From Isoetes taiwanensis (taxonomy: Eukaryota > Streptophyta > Lycopodiopsida > Isoetales > Isoetaceae), in contig JAJEKV010000160.1 of the NCBI GenBank assembly GCA_021234155.1, positions 354,388 to 418,387 of the forward strand: a stretch of 64,000 nt of DNA, written 5' to 3'. The notes beneath the pieces were generated by a model. It did not search any database. It was not told the DNA's origin and saw nothing but the letters and a program-made list of their open reading frames with translations. Made by a program: the position numbers and the translations under genes. Shown here piece after piece: positions 1-64,000 of the stretch; within the stretch, counting starts at the first letter, position 1, and each line of letters opens with the position of its first letter.

Positions 1-1383
1 CACAGCCACTAGATGTGGCCTGCTTTGGGCCATTCAAGGTCAAATTCACATAACAGGAGCAGGTATATGCATATTTTGATGACAGTGTGCAGCCAACTAC
101 AGATATGCACTCCATCCAAACGCTAATTGCGTCTCTTACTCCCAAAATATTCACTACTGGGTTTTCTTAAGATGTGACGGTCCTCGGTCGATAAGGTCAG
201 CTCTACCGCACCCTTGAAATGATAACATGGCTAAATTGATAATACGAGGTTGATGTTAATGGAGATGAAAGCATGCAAATAGTTTAAAGAACTTGCAGAT
301 GCAGCAAACATGGTAGTATCACGGTTTGCGGTGTGCCCCTAGCCCCCCACGATTCTGAAGAGATTTCAATCCATGAACCTCCTCTACAATTCCAGTCTGC
401 TCCCATTTTGAGCTTGCCGCAATTGCTCCCATCTGATCGCCATAGCTCAAAAAAGCTTCTCATTAACTCTAGAGCCAAAAGAAGTAAACCGGGGACATTA
501 CACCGCAAGGCAAGCTTTTTGTCACAGGGGATGAAATGATTGCAGCAAGAATTGAGCAAGAAAGAAAAAGCTAAGGATGCTGCTAGAGAGAGGAAAGAGA
601 AGTCGGATGAGAAGAAGAGGTTGCAATTGAGAGAAAAAGGCAAGAGAATTGGATGCAAAGAGAAGAGCTGAAGCAAAGGTCGTTAGAAGGTGCAAAAAAA
701 ACCCCGCAAGACGCCTTTTATGAAGAGTCCACCACAAATTTCAGGGCAGCATACTACTTTGAAGATAATGGTAAGTGCAAGTTCACACTTGTTCAAGGAA
801 AAAAGCTTCACAATTGCTCAAAAGAATGCTAGAGCTAGAGCCAGGAAGAGGCTAGATAAGCTAAGAGGAAGGGCAACCAATTGGGTGCAACCTGTTGTAC
901 CATTCCGTTGTGTCCAACCTACTGTTGAGCCAGTAGGTGTAATTGATGATGGTGAAAAAAATTTAGTTGTAGAGCATGATGTAGTTGAGGAACAAGAGGT
1001 AGAGAACAATAATTTGAGGCAAGATTTCATGCAGGACAGCCAAAATCCAAGTGAATTTGATGATGACTGCATTGGTTGCAGCATAGAAGACACTCACATA
1101 TGTTCTTGGGATGAAAGATGCCGAAAGAAGAAGCAAAAGTTGGAGCAGTCTAAAGCCTCTAAATCCCATGGGAATTTGGGATGAGAATCCTGAAGATATG
1201 TGGACTGCACCAGATGGTTATCATGGTAGGGATGACCATTTCAATCAGCCAATGCATGTGGTCCAGCAGGATTCTGATACCACTGATGGGTCTGATTTTG
1301 AGCCTCCAGCCAAGAAGACCAAGAACCTTGATGATTTGTACAGGCATGAGGCTGAACAACACTTGAAAAGCTTGGGAATGTGA
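1..1383 (+). pseudogene. Pogo-like DDE transposase, 3' part (copy A)
   Basis: The copy begins at the window edge, at the last catalytic Asp motif (PLDV; Asp codon at 12-14), and ends at the TGA at 1381-1383 after the C-terminal residues HLKSLGM shared by all copies. What remains is the end of the DDE_1 domain and the long tail: a Lys/Arg/Glu-rich predicted helix (about 540-690), a YEESTTN-FEDNGKCKFTL block (about 719-800), an acidic stretch around 930-1010, a small Cys-containing block (CIGCS, then CSWDE), and a charged C-terminus. The frame changes several times: around 120-240, near 570-700 and near 1170. Several breaks sit at CTG/CAG sites where the other copies differ. Everything upstream of the window is unseen, so the copy may be complete to the left. 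Confidence 0.75.
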
Positions 1384-2186
1384 GGCTGCTTCACTTGCAT
1401 AGTTTAGCTTTCAATTTAGCTTTCAGTTTACATGATCTCAACTTCAATTTTGTGTAAGAGTTCTATAAATCAATGAATGCATAATTTTGCTCTCTTGTTA
1501 AATCATGTCAGCTTATATATTGCAAAAGATGGAATGATTTGAAGTCTGATCTAAATTGCCTATCATTTTGGTAATCAACCCTCTTGATTATTGCATGGTA
1601 TTGTGTTTTTACCTTGAGGTGAATTTATGGCAATAGCTCTTGGAGCTTTTTGTCATCAATCCACCTCAAGGTGGTTTGATCTGTTTGCTGGTTTGCTGCA
1701 GGAGGGGATGAAATGGTTATAGCCATTGGCTATGAAGGTTCAAATCCTTCCATCCCTGTATTCATGTGTTTGTGTGGATGCATGCCTATATTGTTGTCTT
1801 TGAGTATGCCATTGAGATTTTTATGCGTGCTATATGAGATCCATGCTGATCCATGTTGTGTCCAAGATGTACCAATTGATGGCATGAGTTGCACCAAGTT
1901 GGATGCAGGTTGTACGATTTGAGGGCACAAGGTGGACTATCTGCAGTGCAAGCTGTACCATTGGAGTTCCTACATGTGCCATCTGTGGACTGCTCTGGGC
2001 CATAGTTAATAGTGCCATATTGGGCATGGATGTGCCAACAAGGGCCAAAAGGCACCTCTGTTCCATTGCATAATTCAGGTAACTCAGTTTTTATTTTGCT
2101 GTTTTTTTTTTCTCATTAGGTGTGTCAGGTTCTGGAGCACGAATTGATCTAAAAATTGCTTGCTGCAGATTGAATTTCATATGTGA
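1384..2186. other. Spacer downstream of transposase
   Basis: Apart from the tRNA-like element there is no convincing gene. The stretch just after the stop codon (TTCTATAAATCAATGAATG near 1460) is AT-rich and could hold a polyadenylation region. It is shared with units B and C. Confidence 0.5.
1705..1756 (+). ncRNA. tRNA-like hairpin, lacking a full cloverleaf
   Basis: A 6-bp acceptor-like pair (GGGATG at 1705-1710, CATCCC at 1751-1756) encloses a perfect 5-bp T-arm-like stem, GAAGG/CCTTC, with a TTCAAAT loop. The Pol III B-box-like string GGTTCAAATCC is present. Only about 23 nt lie between acceptor and T-arm, with one small stem (AATGG/CCATT), so a D-arm or anticodon arm is missing and no anticodon can be read. 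The same structure is conserved in unit B at 44634-44675. It may be a degenerate tRNA or a tRNA-derived SINE head. It is unlikely to be a working tRNA. Confidence 0.35.
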
Positions 2187-2737
2187 ACAGGCCATTTTTC
2201 TCTTAAGTGTTCCAAAGCCGGGCACCCTCCCTTACCAATTAACCTAAGAGGAAAAGAGTATCTGCTTCTCTACGATATATCTTCAGTTACTGGTTTGCGG
2301 GAAATTGAGGACTTTTATGCTTTTGTTGTAGATCTAGAATATTTCATTGACTTTGAGCTGGAAGTGCCAAGGGCAGTGATAACAGATGCCATACTCTGTC
2401 AAGGAGCAAAGTTGGAAAGCACCTCATTGTATGTGAGACCACTCTGCCACAACAGAAGTCAATGTCGATGATAGCTTGCTTACGGAGGGATATAAGAAAC
2501 ACTAGTGATGCCGCTGCGCTAGTTCCAAGCAAGTTACAAATTTCATGTCTGCCTAACCATACTGTAGCAGATATTATGCAGAAAGAAACAACTGGACCAT
2601 CTTCTGCTATAACAAATGCCTGTGCTACATCTCTTGGGGCAAGTTCTACTACAGATCCTACTACAAGTACTAATGATGTTGCTGCTGCAACCCTTCGGGG
2701 CGCTCAAATGCTTCAATGCTTTTCAGTTGGAAGATAA
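2187..2737 (+). pseudogene. Conserved two-frame coding remnant, unknown function
   Basis: An open frame of about 94 codons runs from 2187 to the TGA at 2469-2471 and includes the string REIEDFYAFVVDLEYFIDF, which has protein-like composition. It is overlapped in another frame by 2462-2737 (ATG at 2462), rich in Ser/Thr/Ala. The pair looks like one coding region broken by a frameshift. The B counterpart (about 45090-45690) is broken at different places, mostly at CTG/CAG sites. It follows the transposase in the same orientation and could be a second ORF or an exon of the element. I do not recognise the family. Confidence 0.3.
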
Positions 2738-3043
2738 TTTAACGTCCTCATGTTATGAACCATAGCTAGCAGCTTAATCAACACAACCCGAGCATCAACT
2801 GTTGCCAAAAGCATGTTATGAAAATGGTCTGCTTCTACACTTCTGCTTGAAAATGTCATTGTCGCATGCTAGTTGGCTAAACTCACTCAACTTGGCCACC
2901 TCTTAGAAATTACCCATGGATAAATGGCCATTCTGCATGATACAAATAGACGGTAATGACAAAGATAAGATAAGATAAGATGAAAAAAGGAATGGTATTT
3001 GAAGAACTAAGTCTGCAACTTCATCATCAAATGTAACTCTTAT

Positions 3044-3730
3044 TTATAATTCGTCCAAACTAATATCATTAAGGGCATCATGGAGAAGGCCAGAAACCAC
3101 TACGATCTTGTCACCATCCCCGCTCTCCCCGCCAAAGAAAAGTGCGTTTCTAACCAATGAACAAGATGAGGGTGACCACTGAACCTCAACTGCATAGATT
3201 GGTGGCACAATAAACATCAAAAACAGTCTAATGCCAGTATGAACTACAACACACATGATATGCATTAACTACAAGTCACAAGCAACCTCCACATGCTTAA
3301 CTGGCTTAATCACCAAGGTATCTATAAAAATATTATGTTGTTCTTGGGCGTCCCTTAGAAGTTTATCGGTATAAATATTCCTCTTGAGATATACAACCAT
3401 CCCACATCAACTTCAACCGGACCTTTGTCTTTTGGACTTATCTATGAATATCAAAGCTATGAATATCGAGCATAGAACAAAATCTTAAATGTGAGGGTTC
3501 AAAATGAGAAGTCCACATTGCATATCATGCTCCCTTCTGATAAAGGAAAAAATATAATGTCCACCATTACTAGAACATTTAGCATTTCCAGAAACGAACT
3601 GCAGCATAACCCGAGGAACCATGCAATGCTTGTAATAAGACCTTCCAAATGCATCATTCTGATCTACAAAAGAAAATAAGGATGCAATTGTGTCTTTCTC
3701 TAACTGACCTTTCTGTTTTTGTTTGTTCAT
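3044..3730 (-). pseudogene. Conserved minus-strand ORF pair, unknown function
   Basis: On the minus strand, 3485-3730 (81 codons) reads through a Phe/His/Cys-containing segment with the motif HCMVPRVMLQF. It is followed by 3044-3265 (73 codons), ending SGLLHDALNDISLDEL before a stop. The first ORF recurs in unit B at 46387-46650 with only small changes near its N-terminus. The second is shifted in B at CTG/CAG sites. They may be two exons of one minus-strand gene, since about 220 bp lie between them, but I saw no clear splice pair. The family is not recognised. This lies in the near-identical block shared by A and B. Confidence 0.25.
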
Positions 3731-4312
3731 CTAAACTTGTTAACAATGTTATGGTCTCTCTCGCGATATCTTTTATGTTTCAAAAAAATAGGATTCTACC
3801 TATGCACCATCCATTCTTTTCAAACGCATGCAATCTGATAGTTCCCCGCATATTCAGGCTACCCTGATCTGGAAAGAAAATGCGAGAACAACATCTTTCT
3901 TTTGCTATTATCTCTGGCCCTCCAAATGGCATATTCACTTCATATTACATAATCCACACTAATCTATGCCTTAGATTCAGGATATTCCAAGCATATTCTG
4001 CAAACCTCACAATCACGCCCAGGGTGGTTGGGCAAACCCACCCGTTCAAAGTATGAAAATAAAACAATGAACAAATCTCATGCTTAGTCAACAACCTCCA
4101 AATCCATGCCATCTAAAGGGCAACCAAAACCTTATTATAAAAGCAAAGAGCCTCTTAAGTCATTTGCTTGCACGATGTGGCTATTTCCATTTCTTTCTCC
4201 TAGGTAATCACTTCTATTTGCTTCCGTGATAATTTATTCTATTGCCTGATAATTGCGTGATATTCTATTTAGTTTGTATTTCTTGTAAGTTAATTAAAAC
4301 ATGATTCCCAGT

Positions 4313-4561
4313 TTAGCAATGACCAATAATGTCACAATCGAGGAAAGATTTTACCCTATTAGATTTCATAGATGTAGATGATAGCTTCAACATGTAATCC
4401 GAAATTGTTGCACCGGTTGCAATTCCTTGATGTTGGGGCATGTGGCAGCACCAAAATGCACCACTGGGAAAATTCTTGAACCCATTGTGATATTGTGCCA
4501 AAGGGCAAGGAAACGATGGATGGGTCATTAGGGGATTAGGGCTGGGGATGACAGATCTCAA
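4313..4561 (-). CDS. Hypothetical 82-aa ORF conserved in A and B
   Basis: This minus-strand ORF of 82 codons starts MRSVIPSPNPL and ends CDIIGHC. The predicted protein is identical in unit B (47220-47468). It contains HMPQHQG and several Cys and His residues, but no domain I can name. Because the surrounding DNA is also nearly identical, this does not prove selection on the protein. It may be a terminal exon or a chance frame. Confidence 0.2.
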   Translation of the reverse strand: MRSVIPSPNPLMTHPSFPCPLAQYHNGFKNFPSGAFWCCHMPQHQGIATGATISDYMLKLSSTSMKSNRVKSFLDCDIIGHC

Positions 4562-4724
4562 ATGAATCTGAATTTAACCAGCTAATTTGACGCCTTCAAA
4601 TTCCTTGTGTAGTTTGTGGTGTTCTTTTCCCGGAGCGGCCCTTCAATCGTTGCATAGACCGATCTTGCAATACTTAGTTTCCATGTCCGATTCTTTTCAT
4701 TGTCATCACTTCTTGGTTAGAGCT

Positions 4725-4961
4725 AAATATCCCACATGCCAAATGCTAAGATGGGGACAAACATTTCTTATATATATGTCTGCGATAATACTGAAAACTC
4801 AGCAAGCTGTGTGATGAGCACAGAGCGAACTATTCTTTCGCCTTTTACTAAAGAATACCGTGTGCTCGTCACAAATCGCGGCATATGCCATTTTTTGGGA
4901 TGCCTTCTCTTTGCAGAGGGCTCAACAAAAAACCAAATAGAAAATGTTGCAAAGCCTTTTC
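4725..4961 (+). repeat. 240-bp hairpin repeat, copy R1 (unit A)
   Basis: This is the first of four copies in unit A. It begins AAATATCCCACATGCC and ends GCAAAGCCTTTTC. Its core holds two nested inverted pairs, GAGCACA/TGTGCTC and ATTCTTT/AAAGAAT, which could fold into a long hairpin. It lies in a longer segment (about 4545-6600) that recurs, shortened, at about 13350-14880. Confidence 0.85.
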
Positions 4962-7100
4962 TTCTGCAGTCGTGGTAGATGGCTTTTGATAAGGTATCTT
5001 TTTTTTTGTTCTTTGTCCGTAATGCGTTTCTTGTAAATCTCCTCTTTTGGTTAGTACATATAGGACTAGGTAACTTATAGACACTGAAGTTGCAATAGAA
5101 TTAGTCTCTTTCACCTGTGTAAGGTATCATTCTAGGATAGGAAAGAGCTGAATCCGACTGCTGGAGCCTATAATTAGAGAGCATTGTATTATGAATAAAC
5201 AGAACAAATCTGCAGAGTTTGAGATGCCTGGTACATAACGGTGCATGAGATGCAAAAATTCGTTAGATATCAGAATGTGATGAGGGAGAGATCAACCACA
5301 TTTTCTTCCTTACAATGACTGTAGAAGGTATAGATTCCCCTAGCACAAGAAATGGCTAAAGAACCATGTAGCTAGTTGCAGTTTCAGTTGCAAAGTGTTT
5401 TCCTTTGTTGCCCAGAGTTTGTGATGAGGAGATTTAAGTTAGCTAAGGATGCAGTTAACTGTTAACCAGTTATAGTTTGCAGACATAGTAGCTCTTATGT
5501 TTGTCTGTGCATGCTTGCGTAGTATGTCTTCTACTTTATGATTTTTGTGCTGAGATTTTCAGTTATGTTCTTATGTTTGTTGTCCTGAATTTTCTTTTAT
5601 GCTTTTGTTGGTAATGCATTAAAGGTTTTGTTTGCAGATATGGTTCTTGCAAATGTGTTTTTTCATACATTTAGTTAGTAGATACATTGAGACTTTACAC
5701 AGCATGCACTGAGAGTTGAGATGTTGAACATTTTTGTCAACAATTACATATTGATCTGCCAGAAGGAAAGCATCATTACTGGCATATAAGGTTCGTGAGA
5801 TGCACAGAATGGTGTGACTGCTGGAAGGCAGGCATTATTGTTGACACATAAGATGCATGAGATGCAACGATCAGAATAAAGTGTACTAAACTACGTACGA
5901 TGAATGACAGTAGCATTTAATTTGTCCTTCACATTGATTGTGGAAAATATGGATTTCCATTGTATGCCCATAGAAAATCCGTGCTCTGAATCATGGGTTT
6001 CAAATGGAGCTCTCTAACGAGAACTCACACGTGAGCTAGGCAAGCAAGCCTAAAAACATGTACCAATCATGAGGAATTGAAGCACTTGATTGTGGCCCAT
6101 CCTCTAGTTTTGCTGGGATTTTATGCATATCTATAAATGGCCTCCACTTTCTCTATTTACTGTGGTGGGTTATGTATGCAATGCACATGTTCCATAGCAA
6201 TAAATGGGCCCTGTTCGCAACTGTCATTTTTTAAATAGATTTACCTCTGATTGGAATCCAACTACGCACACAAGACTTACAACATAAACAAGACAACTCC
6301 GCTGATGTGAGGCTTGAGTTATTATTTTCAGTTTTGTATGTCAGTGTTAGATGATTTTGAAGAAAGGAGTGCGAACTAGCTATGTGATGTGAAAGATGGA
6401 ATGGCTTCAAGGTTTTGTTTTTTCATGGCAGATTCAAGTCCTTGCAAAGTCCAATACTGCAGAAGCTGGAGACTCGGGCTTGGACAGAAACATGAGTCTT
6501 CTGTTTGGCTATATGCATTGTGCTCTATCATATTTTGTTCATAATATACAGATTTTTATCAAGTCATAATGAATAAACAAAAAGCATATGTTGTGTCTAG
6601 TATAATGTAGATGCAGGATTTTTTCAGGGAGTTTTTGCAGAGAGGTTGCTTTTTACAGTAAACTAATATGCTGTCCTATATCATGCTATTAACTTAAATC
6701 GGTCATGCTTTTGGCTTCTTGTGTATATAGAACCAATTGATTCGATATACCTTGTGATATTGAATATAACAAGGTTAAATTTGAAGACCATGAAACCTTG
6801 AGGTATTGTAATACAAAGACATTAAAAAAGAAATAAGATCTATTACTTTGACTTCTATTGAAATGTTTTAACAAATACAGGAGGCAAAACGCTACACAGT
6901 TGTCCAAAAGGGCCGTTTTATTGTTTTGAACAGAAGTATGTGGGAGCTAACTAAGGTGCACGATAACAGTAAGGGTAGACTCATGCTTCCATGTAATGTT
7001 ATTGCAATTACAGGCATAAGTATGAAGACGTCCAAATTTTTTAAATGCTCTTTCCTTAAGACCATTTTGCAACAGGGTCATTTATAGAAGACATGTTATG
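4962..7100. other. Long gene-free stretch
   Basis: The stretch is AT-rich and nearly identical to 47869-49830 of unit B apart from small deletions in B. It contains no convincing coding region. Parts (for example around 5740-5900 and 6450-6600) are diverged duplicates of 14340-14880, so it belongs to the local duplication that also spread the 240-bp repeat. Confidence 0.5.
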
Positions 7101-7109
7101 ACAATACAA

Positions 7110-7251
7110 CTAGTCAAACAAGAATTCAGAGAGAGGAATTTCAGGAAGCAGAACCTGTCTCAGCATTGCCTGCATATTCTCAAAGTAGGATGGCCATTTC
7201 GGATCCGTTGCTCCTTGCAGTAGCTTTAATGCACCCAAAAAGTAGTCATTT
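7110..7251 (-). pseudogene. Minus-strand gene fragment cut by the copia insertion
   Basis: A short minus-strand frame, ending PEIPLSEFLFD and a stop, runs up to the copia insertion point. In the empty site of unit B (about 49868-50100) the same DNA continues without interruption. There an adjacent frame includes AQFNAGDIQEGLIQF. The composition is protein-like, but I cannot name the family. The insertion and the frame breaks make it a non-functional fragment in A. Confidence 0.25.
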
Positions 7252-7259
7252 GAACTTAT

Positions 7260-7500
7260 TAGAAGTGCTTTCAGTGCTTCAGTGCTTTCAGTGCTTTCTA
7301 GATGACTATACATGCTTTGAGTTGAATCAAACCTTCTTGAATATCTCCAGACATCATTTGTTGCTGGCGTGGCATGTCTATATAAAATACAGTCACGCCC
7401 ATCCAACTTAGTTAGTCTTTTCAAACCGGTGGAAGGTTATGCTCTTGTATCTTCTTCATTCTTCAAGGAATACATTCTATTCTATAGTCCTTTTAGTTCA
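7260..7500 (+). repeat. Copia 5' LTR (anomalous)
   Basis: The repeat starts TTAGAAGTGCTT and ends TTTTAGTTCA directly before the primer-binding site. It matches the 3' LTR in the GATGACTATACATG, ACATCATTTG, GTGGCATGTCTATATA and CTTCATTCTTCAAGG blocks. Positions about 7315-7350 do not match the 3' LTR. They resemble host flank found at 12612-12645 instead, and GTGCTTTCA-type repeats are expanded just upstream. Confidence 0.8.
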
Positions 7501-7514
7501 TGGTATGAGCACGG
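7501..7514 (+). promoter_or_regulatory. Copia primer-binding site
   Basis: TGGTATGAGCACGG abuts the 5' LTR. The usual plant copia site complementary to initiator Met tRNA begins TGGTATCAGAGC. The match is good except for a missing dinucleotide exactly at the CAG, in keeping with the CHG-site damage seen across the window. Confidence 0.7.
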
Positions 7515-7929
7515 ATTTGAAGGATGAAGGAGAAACATGGTTGATCCAACTGATTCTTGATCTAGATTTGTAGATCAAAGGTAAAACCGTGAAGGTGAAG
7601 TGGATTTGTTTAGTCTTTAAATAAGCTAAATTGTGATTGAATCGGATAAGCAGGATGCCTGGAATCTTGCAATTCTTGCAAGAACAGGTTCAAGAGGGTT
7701 GATCAAAACTCTTGATGATTCTCATCTAAGATTGTGAGATATTTGAAATTTTCTAGCTGATTTGTGCCGGTTCTAATAGTAGAGTAAGCCATTAATTCAA
7801 ATTTAACCTCTCTTCTAATTTTAGAGTCAATTCTTTTTCGGCTCTTGTGGTCACGAAGCCTCTATTTTCGAATTTCCTGGTCTTTCTCAATTTTTACATT
7901 CTCCTCGCCCATTGTGCTCTTTTGTGCTT

Positions 7930-8690
7930 TATCATGGCGGTTAGTCATGATCCTTTCGAAATATTTTCAAAGATCCGTTCTTGATGATCATAATTGTTTT
8001 TACTTGGAGAGAAGCTTTCAAGACAAATCTTAATCTCAAGGATTTGGGTGAAGTTCTTGATATTCCTCCTATTTTCCCAAAACAGATGATGAAAAGAAGA
8101 AAGATTTCTATGCTCTCAATCATCTTGGGCTTGTATTTGCAGGGATTATCTTATGGATATTAAGGAGTTCTCTGGCCCGGAATGACCTTTTTTCTCGCAA
8201 AAGAAGTGTGTTCTTAAAGGTGAAGGACAACGTTTGTTATTCAGACCAAAATGGATAATCTGGTTAGTACATTGTTCCAAAGATGCGAGACTATTTTTGA
8301 AGCAACTCAAGACTTTACATGCCAGTATATTAGTCTTTGGAAGCAGAGATGAAAGAGGTGACTTATTCTTTATGCTTTGAAGGGGTTGTAAATGGCCGAT
8401 GAATACAAGCAGCCAAGATCAACACAAAAGTTCTACAAATTGGGAGAAATAGAATCAAGATTGATTTTCATCATCTACAACAACACTTGTTAGATGAAGA
8501 GCATGGAAAATAAGAGATCCATTCAAATTGAATGATTTATTATTCTCATACCATGGTTCCTTCTTATCTCTAAGATGCTACCAGATAAAACTACATCTTT
8601 AGAGGACAACTCGCCAAGATGGATATTTCACTTGCTGGTATTGTGGTAAGAAAGGTCATATGAAACGTCGATGTTGAAGTTGCAAAGAAG
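7930..8690 (+). pseudogene. Copia gag remnant with CCHC zinc knuckle
   Basis: The gag-like start is near ATGGCGGTTAGTCATG (7934). A segment resembling the plant copia gag polypeptide (a Trp-Arg-x-x-Phe block near 8004-8030, then NLKDLGEVLD) follows, broken by frameshifts. At 8633-8674 there is a perfect CX2CX4HX4C zinc knuckle, CWYCGKKGHMKRRC, immediately followed by an in-frame stop. In copia elements this protein forms the virus-like particle core and binds RNA. This copy is clearly non-functional as read. Confidence 0.65.
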
Positions 8691-9329
8691 AGTTTGTCAA
8701 TTTGCAAAAGAGAACTCAATGAATTTACTTTGCAAGTCTTTCTACTTCTTCAATTTCAAAAGGTGCCAAAGTTGCAAATTTGTTGATGAGTTAGAAGCTT
8801 CAATTTCTTGGTATTGTGCTGCAGAACATTTATTTCTAAGAAGAGTGATAGTTAATCATGATTCAAGATGATAGAAAACATCTAACATGCAAATCAAATG
8901 TATTTTCATCACTTCAAAGGTATGACTCTACAAGAAGTTGTTGTGAAGATGGCAATGGAAATCTTACATTTGCTAACCTTGAGCACAAGGAAAGGAACAT
9001 CTCATATGAATTAAAGTTTGATCCATCAATGACTTTCCAACTTAAGGATGTTCTTCTTGGTGTACCTTGGTTCTTTGGTTAAACATTAGTGTTAGCCCAT
9101 TTGATAGACAATTGGGTTTATCCATTTTTTTTTTGGGAGGTTTGGTCTACATCTTGCTATAAAAATCCATTACACTTTATTGATGTAAATTTGCTTGGTC
9201 CTCAAGAGAGGACATTTAAAAGAAGGTCCAAATGTGCTTCAAGGAAAGTTGAGTTCTCTTTTTTCCACCTTTTAAACAATCATCTCAAGAGTCTTCTCTC
9301 ATCTAAAACTCTTCAAACTCCGTAATCTT

Positions 9330-10110
9330 TGTGGCATGATATAGAGGTATGAAAACCCATGATTGCGCTTTGATTATAGCATCCAAATTAAATATGGACA
9401 CAAGGATTACCATCTCTTAAGTTTCAAGACCTTAAGATGCCATGCCCGCAGATTTAAAGTCCAGTGCACCTTATCCCAAACAAAGATATGCCATGGTTGG
9501 CATTGGCCATAGTCTTTTAGAGCTTATTCACAATGTATGTGGTTACATGCCTATTGAGTCATTCACCCGAGCAAGACTTTTTTGTGTTTGTGGATGTTTT
9601 TAGTAGGTACACATGGGTCTATACTCTTACATTTCAAATCTCAAGCTTTTTCTACATTCAAATCTTGAGGCCCTTTGGTTCCGGAATATTTCTACATCAA
9701 TCAAGGCTCCCAGAATGGTAATGCAAAGGAATATTTGTCTACCGATTTTGAAGATTATCCAAGGGTATTCATGGGAACTCATAGTGCCCTATGCACATTT
9801 ATTGGGTTATGAAATTGGTGGGGAATTTTTTGGATTTGGCAAGGAGCATGTTAAAACACAAGAATTTGTCTCCAATTTTTGGATGAGGCATGTTCCCTTG
9901 ATGTTATCATAACGAGCTCCAACAAAAGCTTTGAATGAAAAAACACCCTTTGAGGCTATTTTGGAGTTAATGACCATATATAACATCTTCGAGTATTTGG
10001 TTGTGTAGGATATGCTTCTTATCCTCGAAATCCTTTTCAAAAGAAAGGGAACATGGATAGGTCCTAAAATAAGGTCATATTCATTGGCTACACTTGGAGA
10101 ACATGAAGGC
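9330..10110 (+). pseudogene. Copia integrase remnant
   Basis: In several frames the order is: LWHD-like GAG-pre-integrase remnant (about 9337), ELIHNVCGYMPI-like block (about 9519-9560), the integrase core motif FVFVDVFSRYTWVYTL (about 9578-9625) with the first catalytic Asp, STDFEDY (about 9740), NRAP-TKALNEKTPFEA-like block (about 9910-9955), and VFIGY-like KVIFIGY (about 10072-10090). These are standard landmarks of copia integrase. The region is frameshifted throughout. Confidence 0.7.
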
Positions 10111-10774
10111 TTGAGATAAAAAGTGCGATAACAAGAATGGTTTTGCTATCCAAGAGTATGGAATTTCTGGAAGATGCTCAATACTCATTTGATTCTCAGT
10201 TTCTGATTGATTATGACAAGGCAATTTTCAATCTCTTTGATGTTGAACCCGGCCGAGAGCCGTTTCAAAATCTTGAAGTTCACTTTCATCTATGCCTCCA
10301 TACGTATTTTCATTACCTTCAAATGATGATCTTGTTGTTTTTCATGAATAGTATGGGTTCTTCTTGTTGAAGTCCATTTGATCACTCACCATCATCCTCT
10401 TTGTCTCTTCCCCGTTGTTCATGATTCCTCGTTTCTTTCCCCTGTTTCTCACACCCATTCTTTTCTTCCAATCCTTATATGATTTTGAGCCTCAAGTGAT
10501 TTACACATAACTTCCGACTTCACCATCATTGTCTCCTTTGTTCTCGAACTAAATCAAGTTGATTCTTTTGAGTATTCCTCCCGCTAGTGAATTGTACCCG
10601 AACGATTTGAACAAACTTGCTGATTTGTCTTTGAGTCCGGTGGCGGGCCGGGTGTTGGCAAAGATTTGGGTATTTGGTGTGATACATCTAATATGTGTAA
10701 TTATGCTTTGATGGTTAAAGTTCTTAATGATTGTGATCCTATCTTCTATGGTCAAGTTAACAAAAGTTGATCAT

Positions 10775-50100: not shown

Positions 50101-50129
50101 ATCCAACTTAAATATCAGTGCAGTATCCA

Positions 50130-52196: not shown

Positions 52197-52421
52197 TGCC
52201 GGATGCTAAGATGGGGACAAAAGTTCTTATATATTGATAGGGGATAACGTTGAAAACTTCGCCAAAGAAGTGTGATGAGCCGCAGCGAACTATTCTTTAA
52301 GCCTTTTACTAAAGAATACCCGTGTGCTTCGTCACAAATGCGGCGTATGCCATTTTTGTGATGCCTTCTCTTGGAGAGGGGCTCAACAACAAACTAAATA
52401 GAACATCTTGCAAAGCCTTTT
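52197..52421 (+). repeat. 240-bp hairpin repeat, copy R3 (unit B)
   Basis: The sequence is rearranged around the proximal arm (GATGAGCCGCAGCGAAC), with an extra C in ACCCGTGTGCTTCGTC. The ATTCTTT/AAAGAAT pair is intact. Confidence 0.8.
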
Positions 52422-52631
52422 CTTCGCATCCCAATTAAGCGTTTGTAATCGTTTCTTGTAAATCTGCTCTTTGATTAGTACTTATTATTGAAACTAAAAG
52501 CGGTTGCAATGGAATTAATATCGGACACCTATGTAAAGGCAACCATTAGGATAGAAGAGAGCTAAATCAGATTCTTTGAAGCTTATAATAAGGGAATATT
52601 GTAAATTGAATAAAAAGAACTCACCCCACAA

Positions 52632-52871
52632 AAATATCCCACATGCCAGGATGATAAGATGCGGACAAAAGTTCTTATATATTCATATGGGATAACGGTA
52701 GAAAACTTAGCAAGCCGTGTGATGAGCCACAGGCTTAACTATTCTTTTAAGCTTTTTACTAAAGAATACCGTGTGCTCGTCACAAATCGCGTGACATATG
52801 CCATTTTTTGGGATGCCTTCTTTTGGGAGAGGGTTCAACAAAAACCAAATAGAACATCTTGCAAAGCCTTT
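52632..52871 (+). repeat. 240-bp hairpin repeat, copy R4 (unit B)
   Basis: The proximal arm is altered (GAGCCACAGGCTTAAC). The distal arm TGTGCTC and the inner pair are intact. It follows R3 closely, as in unit A. Confidence 0.8.
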
Positions 52872-53204
52872 CTTAGCATACCAATTACTTTATTGTCTAA
52901 TAAATCAGACACGGCACCGTTAAACCTCTCCTCTTTTCTTTCCTCATGCCATTTTTCTATGTATGGCGTTGTTCTGGCAAACATTTGTGTTATATAGCGA
53001 TCTTTCAATTAAGTATATGTTGCCCTGCAAATTATGTTGGATTGCTGGACTTTCACACTCCCACATTTGATAGTTTATACTAACATGTCTTATGACTATT
53101 CATTAAGTCAATGGCCATTTGGTCTTTATATAGATTAGCTCATGCAATAAATCTTTGGTACATAATCATAGAAGTTGAATAGATACTTTTGACTTGCTAG
53201 GTTA

Positions 53205-53393
53205 TTGAAGGGGTTTTACGTTATGGAGATCGAGTTTTGGTCTTCTACACTTGGGACATGGATGAGAAGTCGCGAATTGAGAACCACGAAGCAATTAGAG
53301 CCGGCCTTAATGAGCTTGGATCTATCCTCCTCCGATGTGGCAATTAAAAGTCAAGAGTTGCTTCTACTTGGGATCATTACGGATGGCCGATAA
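53205..53393 (+). pseudogene. Short ORF, unknown, unit B
   Basis: A 62-codon frame with WSSTLGTWM and VAIKSQELLLLGI. The colinear region in unit A (about 15920-16090) has the same words broken into different frames. No family recognised. Confidence 0.2.
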
Positions 53394-53491
53394 ATCGAAC
53401 CCCATTTTTTTCAGTTGCCATGGCTTTGCATGCATGTTTAGAGATGGTGGCCGAATTATCCATTTCTATTAAATTCTCGGCTATACAAGTT

Positions 53492-53524
53492 GAATATGAA
53501 TCCATCTTAGGTGGATTCATATTC
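53492..53524. repeat. Perfect 13-bp hairpin, unit B
   Basis: Arms and loop are identical to those at 16190-16222. Confidence 0.8.
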
Positions 53525-53659
53525 ATCTTCATCTTCGTTTTTTTTTTTTGGGTCACATATGTCTATAACACCCTTATGTTGGGGGGGGAGGAGGGATCAC
53601 ATGTGTCTATAACACCCTTATCTTGAAGGAGGAGAGAATGTGTGTGGCAATCCAGAGAG

Positions 53660-54300
53660 AGACCATGTTGGAGCCTAGGTGGCATGCATGAGCCACCTTG
53701 GCATGTTGAATCTAGGTGGCATGTTGGATCCACCTTGGCATGTTGGAGCCCACGTGGCATGTTTGAGACACCTTGGGATGTTTGAGCCACGTGGCATGTT
53801 AGAGTGGGCATGGCATGTTTGAGCCAACTAGGTGGCATGGTGGATCCTAGGGGTACAACATTTGAACCATAAGAAATAACATATGAAATTGATTAAACCA
53901 TTAGAAAATATTACATTAGAAATGTCATATTACATTGATGTTTCAATTGGAATGTTGAAGCGGCATGTTGGAGCCTAGGTGGCATGTTTGATCCACCTTG
54001 GCATGTTGGAGCCCACGCGTGGCATGGTTGAGCCACCTTGGCATGTTGGAGCCTAGGTGGTATGTTTGAGCCACCTTGCGCGTTGGAGCCTAGATGGTGT
54101 TTGAGCCACCTTGGCATGTTGGAGCCCACGTGGCATGGTTGAGCCACCTTGGCATGTTGGAGCTTAGGTGGCATGTTTGAGCCACTTTTGCATGTTGGAG
54201 ACCCTAGGTGGCATGTTGGAGGCCACGTGGCAAAGTTTGAGCCACCTTGGCATCTTTGGAGCCCATGTGGCATGTCGCGGAGCCAAATGGTAGATCCTAG
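53660..54300. repeat. GCATG-rich minisatellite (unit B)
   Basis: The same two-block arrangement as in unit A with the same unique spacer (about 53850-53945). The number of units is almost unchanged. Small indels at CTG-like positions interrupt the long minus-strand frame less than expected (148 codons open, 53911-54357). Confidence 0.85.
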
Positions 54301-54329
54301 GGGGCACAACATTTGAACCACAAAAAAAA

Positions 54330-55431
54330 TAACACATTGTTCACGGCAAACCTTCAACCTCGATTAGCTTTTAGAACCTCCAAGTTGTTTATGCAAAAAC
54401 TTGGAAAAATTATCAAAGAACTCAAGTTCTAAGTGATTTCCCAAAACCAAGAAAAGGCACTCTCAACAAAACTTATGCCATGCACAAACAATCTCAATTT
54501 TGATACCATTTCGGTTCAAGCAAGTGCTCTAGTATGCAAAAGAATCTTTAACCAGTAAAAAGTCTAACCCCAAAACATATCAGAGAACTTGGTTCAATTT
54601 TGATAATTTGACCAAGTCAAAATAAAGTCAATGTTCCTAGTAGAATTCATATTTTTGCAGCTATCTCGAACCCTTGCAAGCGAGTGCATCGATTCTCGGA
54701 ACAAGAAATATGCAAAGCGTGACCTTAAAATGTGATTTTCGTGATTGACATCACTTTGCAACAATGACTTAGAACTTAAGATTTTTCAGTTTTTATGATG
54801 TTTCTTGAATGTTTTTTCTAACATGAGTTGTGGTGGAGAGGGATAAGAGGAAACTAGGTGTACACGGGTTGGAGTATATATGCTAGTTTTGTCATTTTCT
54901 ATTTTACCGCATCCCAAGAAATCAAATTTGGGGGTCTAAATTTGGCCAAATTCAATTTTTCAAAGCTTGATTACATTTTGGAATAAGAAAATTTGGATAA
55001 TAAGGACTTTTTTGTTTTTAGGGCAAGAATGGCTAAGATGCATGATTTTGCAACAAAAGGTGATGACTTGGCAAGCAAAGATGGCCGCGGCAATTGAGGG
55101 TGGTGATGTGGCAAGAAAATTAGCAAACAAAGTTTCTCCTAGTCAAGAACTTTTTGTGACATGGATATGATATGGTGATGATGTGATATAATGGAATTTT
55201 TGACATGTATACACAATGATGCTTTGATTTTTGAGATTTTCGGGACAACTTTTTTTGTCTTTTCTAGGCTCTCTATCTTTATGTTTTGGAGAGATAATAT
55301 GGTATTGGACTTTAGAAATGGCTAAATTGGATGGAATGATTATAGTAAAGCCTTGAGAAATAGCAAATCATGCCTTAAGATGTAACATCATGGCAAAAGC
55401 TTGAATCATGCAAAGTACCATTGAATTTTGA
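54330..55431. other. Gene-free stretch, unit B
   Basis: Counterpart of 17010-18155. It lacks a segment of about 30 bp present in A near 17965-17998. Nothing else to report. Confidence 0.4.
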
Positions 55432-55764
55432 GTGGTCTTTGGGGCCTTCAACCTTGACTTCAAGTGTTCAAGATGCTTAGGTGATCAATTGTCCTTCAAG
55501 AAATGCCGATATGGTGCCAAACTAGTGTCCATCTTTGGTTTTTCATATCAACGTGTCTTCTACAAGTTGCCAGGTGATGGATGTTTTCAAGTTTCACGCT
55601 CTACAAGCTCACACGCACACACATGTATTAAGTCAAATGCTTGTGAAGTGTGTCAAGCATACATATCCATTTGTTGTATCTTGCCATTTTGTGGTGATAA
55701 TGGAATGTGGACAATTTGGTCATGTATGGATTCTTATAAAACCATAAAAACCACACCTCCTTAA
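55432..55764 (+). CDS. Hypothetical Cys-rich ORF, unit B copy
   Basis: The frame has 110 codons. The first 78 residues are identical to the A copy, and the extension includes ICCILPFCGDNGMWTIWSCM. Function unknown. Confidence 0.2.
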   Translation: MVFGAFNLDFKCSRCLGDQLSFKKCRYGAKLVSIFGFSYQRVFYKLPGDGCFQVSRSTSSHAHTCIKSNACEVCQAYISICCILPFCGDNGMWTIWSCMDSYKTIKTTPP

Positions 55765-56999
55765 AAAACAACACCTCAAACAAACACTACCTTAAAAAAC
55801 AGCGGCTTTAAAAAACATCCTTCAAAAAAAACCATACCGCTGAGAAAAACAACACATCCTTAAAAGAAACTACACCTCCTTAAGAAACCGCACATTCTTT
55901 TAAAAAAACTATGGCTCCTTATCAAAAACTACAGCATATTCTTGAAAAACTATACCTTCGTATAACTACATGTAGGTTTTCTTCAAATCTTCAAAAAAAC
56001 AACCCATATTCTATTTTTTCTATTGTTTTCAGCCGTGGACCAAATGTTGGGGTTGTAGTAGTGAGGAGAAAAGCAGAATATGTGGATATATGAAAGTAAA
56101 TTTAGCCATCAATATGTTGATTGTATTGTTCATGATGTTGAAAATGGTAAGAAGACATAAATTTTACTATAAATGACTGTGAGCAAGTTTTGGATAAAAC
56201 ATTATGTGAAGAATGGTCGTCCCAGTTGCATGAAGGAGTTGAGAAGGTAGATTGTAGGATAAAGAAAGAAAGTATTCGAATAAGCTATTGTATTCGAAAG
56301 CAAACAGTGTACTAAGATAGAGGAAGTGGAAGAAAGATGTAGATGGCCATTTGCTCCGGTGGAAGAAGACCATGCTGATGATACCCATTCTGCAGTCATT
56401 AACATCTGCATCTTTAAATCTAGTTAATTGTATAAGACCTTAAAAGTCGAAGAAGCGTTGTATGTATATACTATCAAATATTTTTATGAGTATAAATAGA
56501 CATGCATCAAGTGGTCGAGGGCAAGGAGTTCGGCCTCCGCCTGCTTCTTATAGCTAGATAAAACATTGTGATCATGAACATGATAACAATGCCACAACAT
56601 GATGTTGCTTCCTCGGAATAACCATGCAACACCGCCATAGACTCATAAGTCTTTGGAAAACTGTTTCACCAACTATCACGCCGTTCTATCCTCTTCTCTA
56701 CAAATAGTCCAAGCCACCAACATATTTTTATTCTTGGCTACCCTGAAAAGTGTCTTAACAAAGTCTTCTCTCTCACTCAAACAACGAGCTACATCTACCT
56801 TTGAACTAAACTTAGCAAGCAATTTGCCCAACCAATCAAATGTCTCAAAGGTCTCTTTGTTGTTCCGACCAAACGTGGTGGAAAAACCAAAGGGTTTCGA
56901 CTCGGTCCATGGACTCTACATAGACGCCGTTTTGTGAAAAACAGGGGAAAGAACAAAAAAAAAAAATGCTCTGAGCATTACCGGCTTAAAGAGCCATGG

Positions 57000-58580
57000 C
57001 AGGCAGCTAGCATAGCAAAAATGACTCGGATTTCCTAAATTGGTGGATTTGTTGGGAAATGGGAGAATCTAGGAGGACTCGGAAATGCGTATTTGGGTGC
57101 AGACCGTCCCCCTCTGGCCAAGTTTATGCTCTACTCTGATTTTCTGGCTGATTTCATTACCAGATGAACTATAACAACCTCCTGAGGTGCCGGCAGGAGG
57201 TATAATCCTAGAAGACTAACTGATTGTTATCATTATGAATCATCCACACAATTATCCTGGTCCGTTTGATGTTTTGATCCACATTATACGGTATCGCTAG
57301 CGTGGTTTGTTCATGATCAAAAGGATCTCTAGAGCATACGACGAAGATGAAGAAGAATAGTTACATATCATGTTATGTTCGATAATCGTATTAGTATAGT
57401 AGTACTAATGTTATTTTGTTTCTATTTGCGAAGAATATCACTATCTATATCTTATCCCTCATATATAATTTACATTGGGTAGATTCTAGTCTTTGATAAT
57501 CGTCTTCAAATATTGACACGTGAGGGCATTTGTGCAGTATACTTCTATAGAAAATATTTTGACATGTAGCAAGATAGCAAGGAAAAAAACTTTGCTTCAA
57601 GGCAAGCCATCTCCATCCGCAAGCTATCTGCGACAGCATTAATGCGCAAGGAGAGACAATCTCGAAGTTCATATGGTGTCTAAGCCTAAGTTTTCCTTCT
57701 CTTATTTTCTTTAAATCGAAGTTTGCCATTCTTCAACGCCCTACTCTTTGGCATAAGGTATGTTTTTTTATCTCATTTCGGTGCTAAATGTTAGTCCTGA
57801 TCCATTCCGTAAATATGTATTTTTCACGCTTTCTCTGCCTCGGGCGCTTTGGCCGTGATACTGGTCGTGAGAAGGCCTTCGATTTTTGCCGCCTTTTTTT
57901 TTTTTTGAGGTATAAATCTATCAAGCCAAGTAAAAGCTCTTTCTTAAGTAGATGAAACAGTGGTATTCCATTTTCGCAAATGAAACCAAGCTATTCTTTT
58001 TCGATGGGGTATGGAGGTCTAGTCCTTCAAGCTATGGGTTCGGGCTCCTTCTTCTCAGGTGATTTCCAGGTATCGATATCCCGCCCTAACATTCACCATT
58101 AGGTTAAGCAAAAAAAGTAAAATGAAGGAGATCAAGAAAAAAAGGAAATGAAGGGAGCAAAGAAGGAGATTCATTAGAACCAAATATTATGGCTAAATTT
58201 AAACTGAAGCAAAGGCGTGAAATTGCGGGGAGATTTGATAGGGGGCGGGCATTTGAGATTGATGAAACTTACTTTCGGGGCACGCGAATGGACATGAGCA
58301 ATGAGATTACTTTTGCTAACTACTTTATGTGCAAAGTCAAATCAAGTATATCTGTTTCAAGGATCCGGATTTCGTCCCTGGATTGAACATCGTTGTTAGG
58401 CGGGGGTCTGCGATGCTTCTTTCCAACGCCTGCTCCTTCCTATTTTGACATATTCCGCACTGCGTTTCATTGAAGGAAAAGCACCATTTTTGTCTACTAT
58501 TATAATTGTGTGGCTAGGGTTAGATCCGAAATCAGGTTATTCACAAGATTGTTAGTAACGGTGGTTTTGAAATGTAAATG
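57000..58580. other. Gene-free stretch, unit B
   Basis: Counterpart of 19750-21330. No supportable gene. It has many small differences from A at CTG/CAG/CCG. Confidence 0.4.
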
Positions 58581-58583
58581 ATA

Positions 58584-58610
58584 GAAGAAGAAGAAGAAGA
58601 AGAAGAAGGT
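58584..58610. repeat. (GAA)n microsatellite with local duplication, B only
   Basis: About eight or nine AAG units lie between two copies of GGTTTTGAAATGTAAATGAT. Unit A has a single copy of that 20-mer and no microsatellite (about 21312-21331). Confidence 0.9.
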
Positions 58611-58732
58611 TTTGAAATGTAAATGATGATAGAGAGGTATCTTTGGCTATGAGAAGGGGAAATAAAAACTAGTAAACTAAAAAACTAAACCTACATAGTG
58701 CAAAATCGTTATGTGTAAATCTAAAATCAAGA

Positions 58733-58762
58733 GGAAGGAAGGAAGGAAGGAAGGAAGGAAGG
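58733..58762. repeat. (GGAA)n microsatellite, unit B
   Basis: About seven to eight units, shorter than in unit A. Confidence 0.95.
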
Positions 58763-59235
58763 TTCTTTTTATAGATGCATGAGGCCAATCGGCCTATGGG
58801 ACCCAAATTACATCAAGAGAAAACATTCGAAGAATAGAAATCTAAAATCAAGAGAAAAAATATTAGACATACTCAAGGCAAGAAACAGAAAAGGCAAAAA
58901 AAGGAAAGAAAAGAAAGAAACACTAGAATAACCAACCGTGGACTCAAACACTAGAAAATATAACCAACCATGGACTCTATTGAAACGACAAGGAAAAAAA
59001 GGAATAAGAACACTATTCCAACACAAGTCCTACCATTTAAAAATATCGGGCTATCATTCAGCTCTAAATTTGCAAACCAAACATGCAAACTACTTTTAAC
59101 ATTTGAAGTCTGTATGCATTAAGGGTTGGTACTTCTGAATTAAGGGAACAATGCTAAAAGCTTAAGCTAATAATGATTAGGAGCAAGGGGACGATGTGAA
59201 AAGCTTACGTCAAGACTAGTTAGGTAATTTTGATT

Positions 59236-59386
59236 AACATCCATGTTCAAGACACTTTCCCACACAATTTTAAGGACATAACGTCATTTTGATCACCATA
59301 TTTCCTTCAACATCCATGTTCAAGACACCTTTCCCACACAATTTTAAGGACATAATGTCATTTCGATCACCATTTTTCCTTCAACA
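59236..59386. repeat. 73-bp tandem duplication, unit B
   Basis: Same pair as 21943-22093. Confidence 0.9.
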
Positions 59387-59707
59387 TTGTGCGTGGTTTA
59401 TGACAATTTCGATACGTTGCATCAAGTATCTTTTACATAGCGTGTTATTTGCACCCGGTGACCAAAAGAAGGCCCGTCGCGATAAATTTCTTGTATGGTA
59501 AATAAGTTTCAAAGTTCTCGCTTGTGCACAAGATCATTTATCGGGATCAGCCCACTGATGCTTAAACAACACTATATGACTACACACAAATATGGCATGT
59601 TTCGCACAATGTCCACGGTAGGAACTTTGCATAAGGTGTGAGTTAAAGTTAGACACAAGGGGATTTGAACCCGGTAAGGCCATTGTTTTTATTTGTTTTA
59701 CTATTTT

Positions 59708-61413
59708 CACTTAAAAAAAGTACAACATGAGGCATAAATACCTTTGTCGTATACAATTCTTCATTACATTTGCCTACTTCTTTGACACCATCCACCAGAA
59801 AATGGAAGAAGTTTCTTACATCAAATAAAGACCATATTGGCCATATATATTGAATATGTTGTAATCATTGTATGTATAATGGTTATATAGCTTAGTTAAA
59901 AACTTAATTTTACTAGTTTGTATTAGTTAGTGTTGTCATATAGGTTTTTTTTTCCAATGGTATCTACCCTTACCTATAGTATATTTATGCAAAGATCGCA
60001 CCATGGTCCGCGACAAAAAAACGCTTTGTTTCTATAGGCATATGAAGTTTTTTTTTGCACGATGGCCATGGGTGTGATAAATCAACTTTGCATAAGTGTA
60101 TGCTCTTAATTTCGTGATGTGAGCTTGTAGGAGTTTCATAAAAGGCGATCACATTTTTATTGCTTTCGAAATAAGGTGCTACAATTCCGCCATGGCAAGC
60201 GTCCGGTCTGAGAAGGCTTGGGAATAGTTCCAAGCATGGTATGATGAGATCTAAGTAAGAAAATCTGGCATTATCAACTATCACACTTAAGAGTTCGCTC
60301 ATCGCTTCAAAACCCGTGGATGCTACTCTAATTTACGATAAATTCTGCCTCGATTGTATATATAATTTTCGAGGTGACCAAACATATTGATATGTATAGT
60401 CTGGTACATTTACAACTTTATGATCGCGGGCAAAAACTAAAAGTTGTTGAGAGAAGCATCACTCTCTCTCAACAGGAAATGTTATATTGAGTCTAAAAGT
60501 CTTTTCTCGAGCTACTTCCTAAAGCTGATCATGATAAGGTGTGAAGGTCATTCAAGAGGCTACCATCTCGCTTATGTGAGAAGGATGGGAGGGAGATATC
60601 ATGTTTGCTACTTACATGATCTATTTGATCCCACCAACGATCAATGGGGCGCAAATAAAAGCTATTGTAGATCCTCATTCACCTATAGAAGGAGTATTTG
60701 ATGCATAAACAAAAGAACCGGGTGGAAAAACAAGACAGTGGATGAGGGAAGAGTAGGAAGACAAAGCCGAGGATGAAATGTTGTTGATAGATGAGGTATG
60801 ATGGAAGCCTTAAGAGAGGGTGCCCGGTATTGGAACATGGGCCACATATTCGCAGTCAACGGGCTCCATTGTGGCTCATGTTTTACTGCCAAGTGAACGG
60901 CTCTTGGTTCTTAGGGTTAGCCGTGAAACCCTAATGGCTTACCTTTGATCCTTCAATTGAAACTGCCGTGGATCTCTATGGCACACCATCATGCAACACT
61001 ACTAACGGCTAGTTGCATGCATGAATACGGATTTGATGCTGATGGCACACACAACCCACTATTTTTACGGCCGTTTTCTTCCGAATCAAACGCCCAAAGG
61101 CATGTATCCTCCACATTTCATGTATTTCAAAATTTCCACGCGGCCCGCACATGCAGCAAAATATGAAGCCATTTTTATGAAGTTTCGGAAAGAGTTTTCA
61201 ATTTTGAATGTAAATCGTAGGCTTCTTTGAGGACCCTTCATTTTGGCGGGTCTCCAAGATCGATACATGGCACTTGATCCCCGCCGGGGCTTGCCCGATC
61301 CATACTCTGCATTCTTATAAATTCTATGTTATGGTTCTTAGTTCTCTGTCTAAACTTATCTTGGTTTGAATTTATCTTTGCCTTCCCCCATTTACATTCT
61401 CATTTTTTTCAAG
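59708..61413. other. Spacer upstream of transposase copy C
   Basis: Colinear with 40183-41889. It includes the conserved 9-bp hairpin (60446-60473) and a short frame (60444-60701). No defined transposon end or promoter. Confidence 0.4.
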
Positions 61414-63874
61414 ATGCAATTAAGGGGAAGAACAATGCCTGCTGTGGATCCTCAAGTCAAAGCTCCTCGTGCAAAATGTGCACACAATCCTGGCATCACT
61501 TATTCTCAGCCTACTTCTAATTCCCTTGGTGGAAAGAGGATTAGAAGTATGGCTAGAGGTTCCTGGAATGAAGAGCAAATGAAAGATGATGTTGATGCAG
61601 TTGAAGATGGGATCATGAGTCTTAGAAGGGCCAACAAAAACTTTGGGGTTCCTCTAACCACTTTAAGAAGATGGATTACGTGTGAGACAGATGCAAAAAA
61701 TGGATCAAAACAGATGGCATTGACTAAAGAAGAGGAGGTTGAGGTTCTTCAATGGTGTTTCCAAATGGTAGATGAGGGTAGGGGTGTGACATTGCAGGGC
61801 TTAAGGGAGAAGGTATCTGAAATGTGTATCAACATACCAACTGCCTTCAAAGATGGTCTTCCAGGTAAAAAATGGTGGAGAGGATTCAAGCATAGGCACC
61901 CAACATTGGCTCTTAGAAGGCCTGAATGTGTTGAAGTTCAAAGAATTAAGGCTATGAATTCTAGCAATTTACACGAGTTCTATTCTACACTTGGGAAGTT
62001 GTACAAGGACTTCAATCTAGAGGCCCCTCAAATTTGGAATGCCGATGAGACAGCATACTGGCAAGGAAAGAGGGCTGGGATGAAGATCTTGGCACCAGGG
62101 GGTGCTAGGAATGTTCATGAGAACATCCCACAAAATAGAGAGTGGTGACCGTCTTTAAGTTGTGTAAATGTCGCCTGGGGTCAATTCTAACCCTACATCT
62201 TTAAGGGCAAGAGGCTAAGGAATGTAGATCTTGTAGCTGGTTGTGAACCAGGTCTGGCCGCTATGGCCTTTCAAAAAAAGGCATGGGTGACTAATATTCT
62301 ATTCGATGCTTGGCTAGAGCATTTCAAAAGAAGTGTTCCCGGTGGAATAAGCAAGGAGAGACCTCACTTGCTGATTTGTGATGGTCACGGGTCTCACTCA
62401 TACCTTTGATTAAAACCAACATGCAAAAGAAATTGGTCTTCATATGTTGCAGCCTTCCTCCACACACCTCCCACAAATTACAGCCCACTAGATGTGGCCT
62501 CGCTTTGGGCCATTCAAGGTCAAATTCAAGGATAACAGAGGAGCGGTATATGCATTCACTCATGACAAGGTGCGACCCAACCAAGGAAGATATGGCAGCA
62601 CTCATCTCAAATTCAATTGCTAGTTCTCTTACTCCTGAAAATATTCGAGCTGGTTTTCTTAAGACAGGTATTTGTCCTTTCAATGATAAGGCTGTTCTAC
62701 CAGACCCTTTAGCTGATAACATGGTTGTAATTGAGGACAATGATGAGGTTGATGTTAATGGAGATGAAAATGTTGCAAATAGTTTGGAAGAACTTGCAGA
62801 TGCAGCAAACATGGTAGTATCTGGTTTGCAGGTGCCCCTAGCCCCAGCCCTGATTCCTGAAGAGATTTCAATCCATGAACCTCCTCTACAATTCCAGTCT
62901 GCTCCCATTTCAGTTGCTGCAATTGCTCCCATACAGTCTGCCATAGCTCAAAAGCTTCTCATTAACTCTAGAGCCAAAAGAAGTAAACTGTCAGACACAC
63001 TGCAAGGCAAGCTTTTTGTCACTTCGGATGAAATGATTGCAGCAAGAATTGAGCAAGAAAGAAAAGCTAAGGATGCTGCTAGAGAGAGGAAAGAGAAGCT
63101 AGATGAGAAGAAGAGGTTGCAATTGGAGAGAAAAAAGGCAAGAGAATTGGATGCAAAGAGAAGAGCTGAAGCAAAGGCTGTTAGGGAGGCCGAAAAACCT
63201 GCAGTACGCCTTTATGAAGAGTCCACCACAAATTTCAGGGCAGCATACTACTTTGAAGATAATGGTAAGTGCAAGTTCACACTTGTTCAAGGAAAAAAGC
63301 TTCACAATTGCTCAAAAGAATGCTAGAGCTAGAGCCAAGAAGAGGTTAGATAAGCTAAGAGGAAGGGCAACCAATTGGGTGCAACCTGCTGTACCAACCC
63401 GTTGTGTCCAACCTACTGTTGAGCCAGTAGGTGTAATTGATGATGGTGAAAAAAATTTAGTTGTAGAGCATGATGTAGTTGAGGAACAAGAGGTAGAGAA
63501 CAATAATTTGAGGCAAGATTTCATGCAGGACAGCCAAAATCCAAGTGAATTTGATGATGACTGCATTGGTTGCAGTATAGAAGACACTCACATATGTTCT
63601 TGGGATGAAAGATGCGAAAGAAGAAGCAAAAAGTTGGAGCAGTCTAAAGCCTCTAAATCCCATGGGAATTTGGGATGAGAATCAAGATATATGGATACGC
63701 ACGGATGGTTATCATGGTAGGGATGACCATTTCAATCAGCCAATGCATGTGGTCCAGCAGGATTCTGATACCACTGATGGGTCTGATTTTGAGCCTCCAG
63801 CCAAGAAGACCAAGAACCTTGATGATTTGTACAGGCATGAGGCTGAACAACACTTGAAAAGCTTGGGAATGTGA
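61414..63874 (+). CDS. Pogo-like DDE transposase, best preserved copy (C), frameshifted
   Basis: This is a cut-and-paste transposase of the Tc1/mariner superfamily, pogo/Tigger branch. From the ATG at 61414 a 244-codon frame holds a pipsqueak-type HTH (residues about 49-90, RGSWNEEQ to LRRWIT), a CENP-B-type HTH (about 98-170, ending WWRGFKHRHPTLALRR-PE) and the start of DDE_1 with IWNADETAYW (Asp codon 62044-62046). A break follows near 62146. The second Asp is in LLICDGHGSH (62380-62382) and the third in the QPLD region (62491-62493), with breaks at about 62400 and 62480. A frame from about 62406 to 63326 carries an acidic linker and a highly charged Lys/Arg/Glu helix (about 63030-63200). 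Further breaks at an A-run near 63295 and near 63680 precede the acidic, Cys-containing C-terminus. I chose 61414 because an earlier in-frame ATG (61366) is not shared with copy B. Confidence 0.82.
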
Positions 63875-64000
63875 GGTTTACATGATCTCAACTTCAATTT
63901 TGTGTAAGAGTTCTATAAATCAATGAATGCATAATTTTGCTCTCTTGTTAAATCATAAAACTTATATATTGCAAAAGATGGAATGATTTGAAGTCCTGAT

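Follow-up and report, generated by a model that had tools for sequence, protein, structure and literature searches.

Systematic base-calling error at CAG and CTG as the probable source of differences between repeat copies in an Isoetes taiwanensis assembly

Comparison of three copies of a repeat unit in Isoetes taiwanensis revealed a marked loss of the trinucleotides CAG and CTG (CWG) from one copy, and some copies of the 5.8S rRNA gene in the same genome are altered at the same words. We consider these changes very probably technical, namely systematic nanopore base-calling errors at CWG in native DNA, with CHG methylation as the proposed cause. Technical error is the best explanation because CWG loss with frequent CG gain, 5.8S damage at CAG/CTG, the probable Guppy 3.1 platform and the precedent of errors in CCWGG all agree with it.

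Repeat units and the origin of the assembly

The genome consists of 1,658,258,908 bases in 1110 contigs, and the published I. taiwanensis assembly is described as 1658.30 Mb in 204 scaffolds and 909 contigs (PMC8566536). From this agreement in size we infer that the two are the same assembly. For the published assembly, native DNA was sequenced from ligation libraries on R9.4.1 with Guppy 3.1 flip-flop base calling, and the assembly was made with miniasm, racon, pilon and LR_Gapcloser, the last being used with pilon between rounds (PMC8566536). Self-comparison of the window, the whole 64-kb stretch analysed here, revealed three copies (A, B and C) of a repeat unit of approximately 19.5 kb. The units and the tracts referred to below are as follows.

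1..22414, + strand: unit A, which starts upstream of the window; approximately 5.3 kb of it (7260-12553) has no counterpart in B
40183..59704, + strand: unit B, approximately 19.5 kb, its first part being the most CWG-altered copy
42952..45900, + strand: damaged tract of B, with 40 of 54 polarised CWG lost (summed 300-base bins)
45900..49988, + strand: clean tract of B, with 3 of 75 polarised CWG lost (aligned parts 45900-48014 and 48379-49968)
51806..55300, + strand: stretch of B in which the CWG of A are mostly missing (43 of 52 over 8 bins)
59705..64000, + strand: first part of unit C, which runs on downstream of the window
25827..30768, no strand assigned: array of four and a half units of approximately 1.1 kb with gap-rich differences

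The array units have 4 or 5 CWG sites in common per unit, too few for a test. The tandem unit carries U5 genes along: eight U5 snRNA-like copies in the window lie above the gathering score (4805-4922, 13574-13692, 14962-15080, 15406-15523, 47712-47829, 50866-50983, 52268-52382 and 52712-52835), and at least 47 U5 matches are present genome-wide. The unit also contains pieces of a DNA-transposon transposase, with DDE_1 in B (42770-43423) and HTH_psq plus a sub-cut-off HTH_Tnp_Tc5 match in C (61354-62145). Short tandem repeats have 38-base offsets at 16366-16984 (A) and 53962-54275 (B), and 6-base offsets at 35384-35540. The sequence 20 kb upstream of the window (L009, L010) is all N and may be a scaffold gap.

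Loss of CWG among the repeat copies

In all seven aligned pairs, we counted the sites at which CWG in one copy is altered in the other and used the anagrams GAC/GTC as the control. In five pairs, CWG was disrupted more often than the anagrams.

13245-21335 with 50558-58585: CWG 119/201, GAC/GTC 46/262
21313-22414 with 58608-59711: CWG 8/14, GAC/GTC 4/44
40183-44343 with 59705-63876: CWG 86/138, GAC/GTC 31/117
1426-5107 with 44343-48014: CWG 55/137, GAC/GTC 13/113
2-1385 with 42952-44343: CWG 39/63, GAC/GTC 16/48

CWG was not enriched between 5647-7259 and 48379-49988 (1/89, GAC/GTC 2/64) or between A and C at 2-1385 and 62480-63876 (35/93, GAC/GTC 18/46), and in a further pair, L006 with L007, CWG differed at 0 of 216 sites. 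When five pairwise alignments were pooled, 269 of 579 CAG/CTG were disrupted, whereas the average class of trinucleotide stood at 14%; CCG/CGG ranked above CAG/CTG (198/346) and the remaining CG-containing classes were high too. The eight strings that the earlier note had quoted as examples of the clustering are all present, at 2124, 45049, 2161, 45083, 3123, 46016, 50116 and 50140.

Since pairs alone give no direction, we polarised the changes from the three copies, counting a site where the other two units agree, in the first two of three aligned segments. In B, CWG was the trinucleotide class disrupted most, with 42 of 84 sites lost; the figure was 302 of 4300 for the other trinucleotides and 2 of 62 for GAC/GTC. 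The losses were 10/52 in A (rest 198/4196) and 11/53 in C (rest 244/4242), where CCG/CGG ranked slightly above CWG (4/18 in A, 6/20 in C). As the trinucleotide counts overlap, Fisher p values serve as a guide only. We also scored whole events against shuffles, omitting those whose flanks differ between both reference copies. CWG was touched by 32 of 68 events in B (7.1 expected, maximum 14 in 500 shuffles), by 6 of 27 in A (1.9 expected, null maximum 7) and by 8 of 43 in C (5.4 expected, null maximum 12), so that by event the CWG excess is clearly beyond chance only in B, weak in A and not significant in C. In B, CCG/CGG (4 events, 1.8 expected, null maximum 7), CG and homopolymers stayed within the null, and CHH-type sites were under-represented (13 against 31.0). 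The earlier note had placed the clustering at CHG; because CCG/CGG events in B lie within the null, that claim holds for CWG and is better read so. Where the three copies overlap, the signal is CWG and is mainly a property of B.

The damage is patchy along B. CWG was lost at 40 of 54 sites from 42952 to approximately 45,900 and then at 3 of 75 over the remaining aligned sequence; the edge between the two tracts, near 45,900, is fairly sharp. Counted without the flank filter, the other differences of B amount to 102 events in the 3053 columns of the damaged tract (50 indels, 52 substitutions) and to 17 in the 3771 columns of the clean tract (9 indels, 8 substitutions). The corresponding indel and substitution events were 26 and 35, then 7 and 8, in A, and 16 and 39, then 17 and 21, in C. 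In bins with two copies, A is the CWG-poorer near 13500 and 19500 and B at 51806-55300; in the latter stretch the direction is read from CWG presence alone. As the earlier note put it, changes within a pair do go in either direction, yet many bins have one copy that is the CWG-poorer.

Such patchiness and its sharp edge, together with the use of LR_Gapcloser with pilon between rounds (PMC8566536), would suit gap-filled sequence that was left unpolished and carries generic nanopore noise. This explanation, taken together with a CWG weakness of the basecaller or consensus that is independent of methylation, seems to us very unlikely. Generic noise would favour homopolymers, yet in B only 21 of 68 events lie at homopolymers of 3 or more, with 23.0 expected, and we rejected homopolymer error as the main cause. 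As for a methylation-independent weakness, the comparable errors at CCWGG were linked with Dcm methylation and went away with a model trained on it (PMC6591954). In terms of base-calling error at CWG, the patchiness may reflect polishing, gap filling or methylation borders. A more speculative proposal, about which we are doubtful, is that CAG/CTG-poor tracts are a fossil methylome that marks CHG-methylated DNA copy by copy; the edge in B near 45,900, close to U5 genes, would then be a real methylation border and not only a polishing border.

The kinds of change bear on real mutation as the source. When methylated repeats decay through deamination of 5mC, changes gather at methylation contexts, and copies would diverge most at CHG and CG. 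The high disruption of CG-containing trinucleotides agrees with this, as do 8 of the 53 polarised lost CWG sites, which now read CAA or TAG. However, deamination predicts transitions, loss of CG and few indels, and CG should become rarer in methylated repeats and not commoner, whereas 28 of the 53 sites are now CG-containing words and indels make up 35 of the 68 events in B, about half. C-to-T or G-to-A changes at the motif with few indels are thus not the pattern of B. Among 120 clusters in which one copy is the odd one out (174 in total, less 54 in which all three copies differ and which were dropped as unpolarised), 32 had lost CWG and 4 had gained it. The same context did not give the identical wrong word significantly often (2 of 280 pairs against a null mean of 0.54, with 150 of 2000 shuffles giving as many); CAG before C tends toward CAA(A) words, a tendency noticed post hoc, after the strict same-word test.

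Technical error is very likely in the CWG-poor tracts of the window, and it is well supported that many indels of the bad tracts are technical. The earlier note had gone further and taken most frameshifts of the window to be technical through CHG, which is only partly borne out: polarised indels touch CWG in 16 of 35 cases in B, 3 of 13 in A and 2 of 21 in C, and 19 of the 35 in B have no CWG contact.

Copies of the 5.8S rRNA gene as an outside reference

The 5.8S rRNA is highly conserved. From at least 40 copies in the genome we took 20, spread over the score range, and excluded L035, L042, L043 and L049; the others were sorted, after gap and CWG counts had been seen, into 10 clean and 6 suspect copies. 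The clean copies define the reference and so match it by construction; in total, 6 of their 50 CWG sites are altered. In L047 and L048, all five CWG sites are altered while most of the gene is intact; the numbers of altered sites are 3 in L045, 2 in L037, 1 in L036 and 0 in L034. Comparison with the Rfam consensus revealed disagreement with L048 at CAG positions and agreement with L034 there. L047 and L048 are thus wrong at the motif in a sequence known from outside, and technical error is nearly certain in copies of this type.

Comparison of seven rDNA pairs gave the following results (disrupted CWG, mean of the pair).

L033/L037: CWG 26/36, mean 0.18, excess
L045/L048: CWG 19/31, mean 0.18, excess
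L036/L048: CWG 21/35, mean 0.28, excess
L034/L036: CWG 29/43, mean 0.40, excess
L047/L048: CWG 3/21, mean 0.09, slight excess
L038/L041 (old pieces): CWG 23/73, mean 0.33, with 146 mismatches, 113 of them transitions, and 3 gaps
L038/L046 (old pieces): CWG 22/66, mean 0.33

The four pairs with a full excess have many gaps. The small difference between L047 and L048 fits shared errors but also a shared mutation. The old dispersed pairs L038/L041 and L038/L046 have no CWG excess, few gaps and many transitions. Old dispersed rDNA does decay as deamination predicts, and L038/L041 has the C-to-T/G-to-A pattern with few indels; the same pairs, as true decay in the same genome with few gaps and no CWG excess, tell against deamination as the source of the CWG losses, and a 5.8S sequence altered at all five CWG sites cannot be functional rRNA. 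Taking these points together with the CG gain and the indels, we regard real mutation as very unlikely. The earlier note's view that deamination is insufficient, with indels and odd substitutions, is borne out by these data, and its proposal that base calling goes wrong at CHG sites, here CWG, is supported by the 5.8S copies hit at CAG/CTG, with methylation as the suggested cause.

The 5.8S pieces L030-L033, L038-L041, L044 and L046 have varied flanks and are spread over many scaffolds, and some scattered 5.8S pairs exhibit ordinary decay with few gaps. Nuclear plastid DNA was rejected as a further test because C840 and C1052 carry plastid-like stretches that derive from two different plastids. 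Their rbcL regions are 89% alike with no gaps, and the rbcL frames are open both in C840 (L021-L024) and in C1052:5391001-5441000 (L025-L029). C840 has a GC content of 0.27 and is likely a contaminant, and the stretch in C1052 has a GC content of 0.41 and lies inside an 11.4-Mb scaffold. Contaminants from non-axenic growth have been reported for the published I. taiwanensis assembly (PMC8566536).

Proposed mechanism, consequences and known systems

In the mechanism that we propose, the DNA would be sequenced native, with the cytosine of CWG carrying CHG methylation (5mC) on both strands, and a basecaller untrained on 5mC in this context would write other words. The wrong words would often contain CG, with CTG becoming CCG, ACG or CG and CAG becoming CGG or CGT, and would sometimes be CAA(A). 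Because the reads agree in such an error, they cannot be used to polish it away, and short-read polishing may have mended some stretches only, leaving the damage patchy. Methylation as the cause of the CWG errors is suggested by the motif and by the precedent below; a limited literature search found no Isoetes methylome.

If technical error is right, the CWG-poor tracts of the assembly, rRNA genes included, contain too many frameshifts and pseudogene calls, and elements there look too old and copies too divergent. Frame breaks, missing motifs and copy divergence in the CWG-poor stretches of the window should be confirmed by reads before any biological meaning is given to them. The count of CAG+CTG relative to GAC+GTC may serve to recognise such tracts in the bare sequence. 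With a cut-off of 0.75, chosen after the data had been seen, this index is below the cut-off in 34 of the 64 bins of 1 kb that make up the window. Of 20 stretches of 2 kb picked by hand elsewhere, 4 were all N and 16 readable, and 4 of these 16 lie below the cut-off. The index is rough, being 0.66 for L034 despite its intact 5.8S CWG sites.

A narrow literature search found no CWG-specific consensus errors in plants named in titles or the openings of abstracts, and we do not claim their absence from print. Lower nanopore accuracy in plants has been described, together with species-specific basecallers, and plant DNA modifications absent from training data are named as a cause (PMC9749173, PMC7501810). 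These studies have the platform in common with the present case; unlike it, the main text of PMC9749173 does not use the term CHG, and the relevant passages of the two papers contain no CWG word spectrum. The closest comparison is with errors at Dcm motifs. In a Klebsiella benchmark, Dcm-methylated CCAGG/CCTGG accounted for approximately 70% of the consensus errors that nanopore basecallers of the time made under default models, and training on Dcm-methylated DNA nearly removed the CCWGG errors (PMC6591954). That case differs in concerning bacterial CCAGG/CCTGG, an older Guppy and an accurate reference, whereas ours concerns a plant, any CWG context and the consensus alone. In both, consensus errors are centred on a motif with a CWG core, where native DNA and 5mC are established in the Dcm case and suggested here (Wick et al. 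2019, PMC6591954). Since CCWGG contains CWG, the Dcm errors are a close precedent for those in Isoetes.
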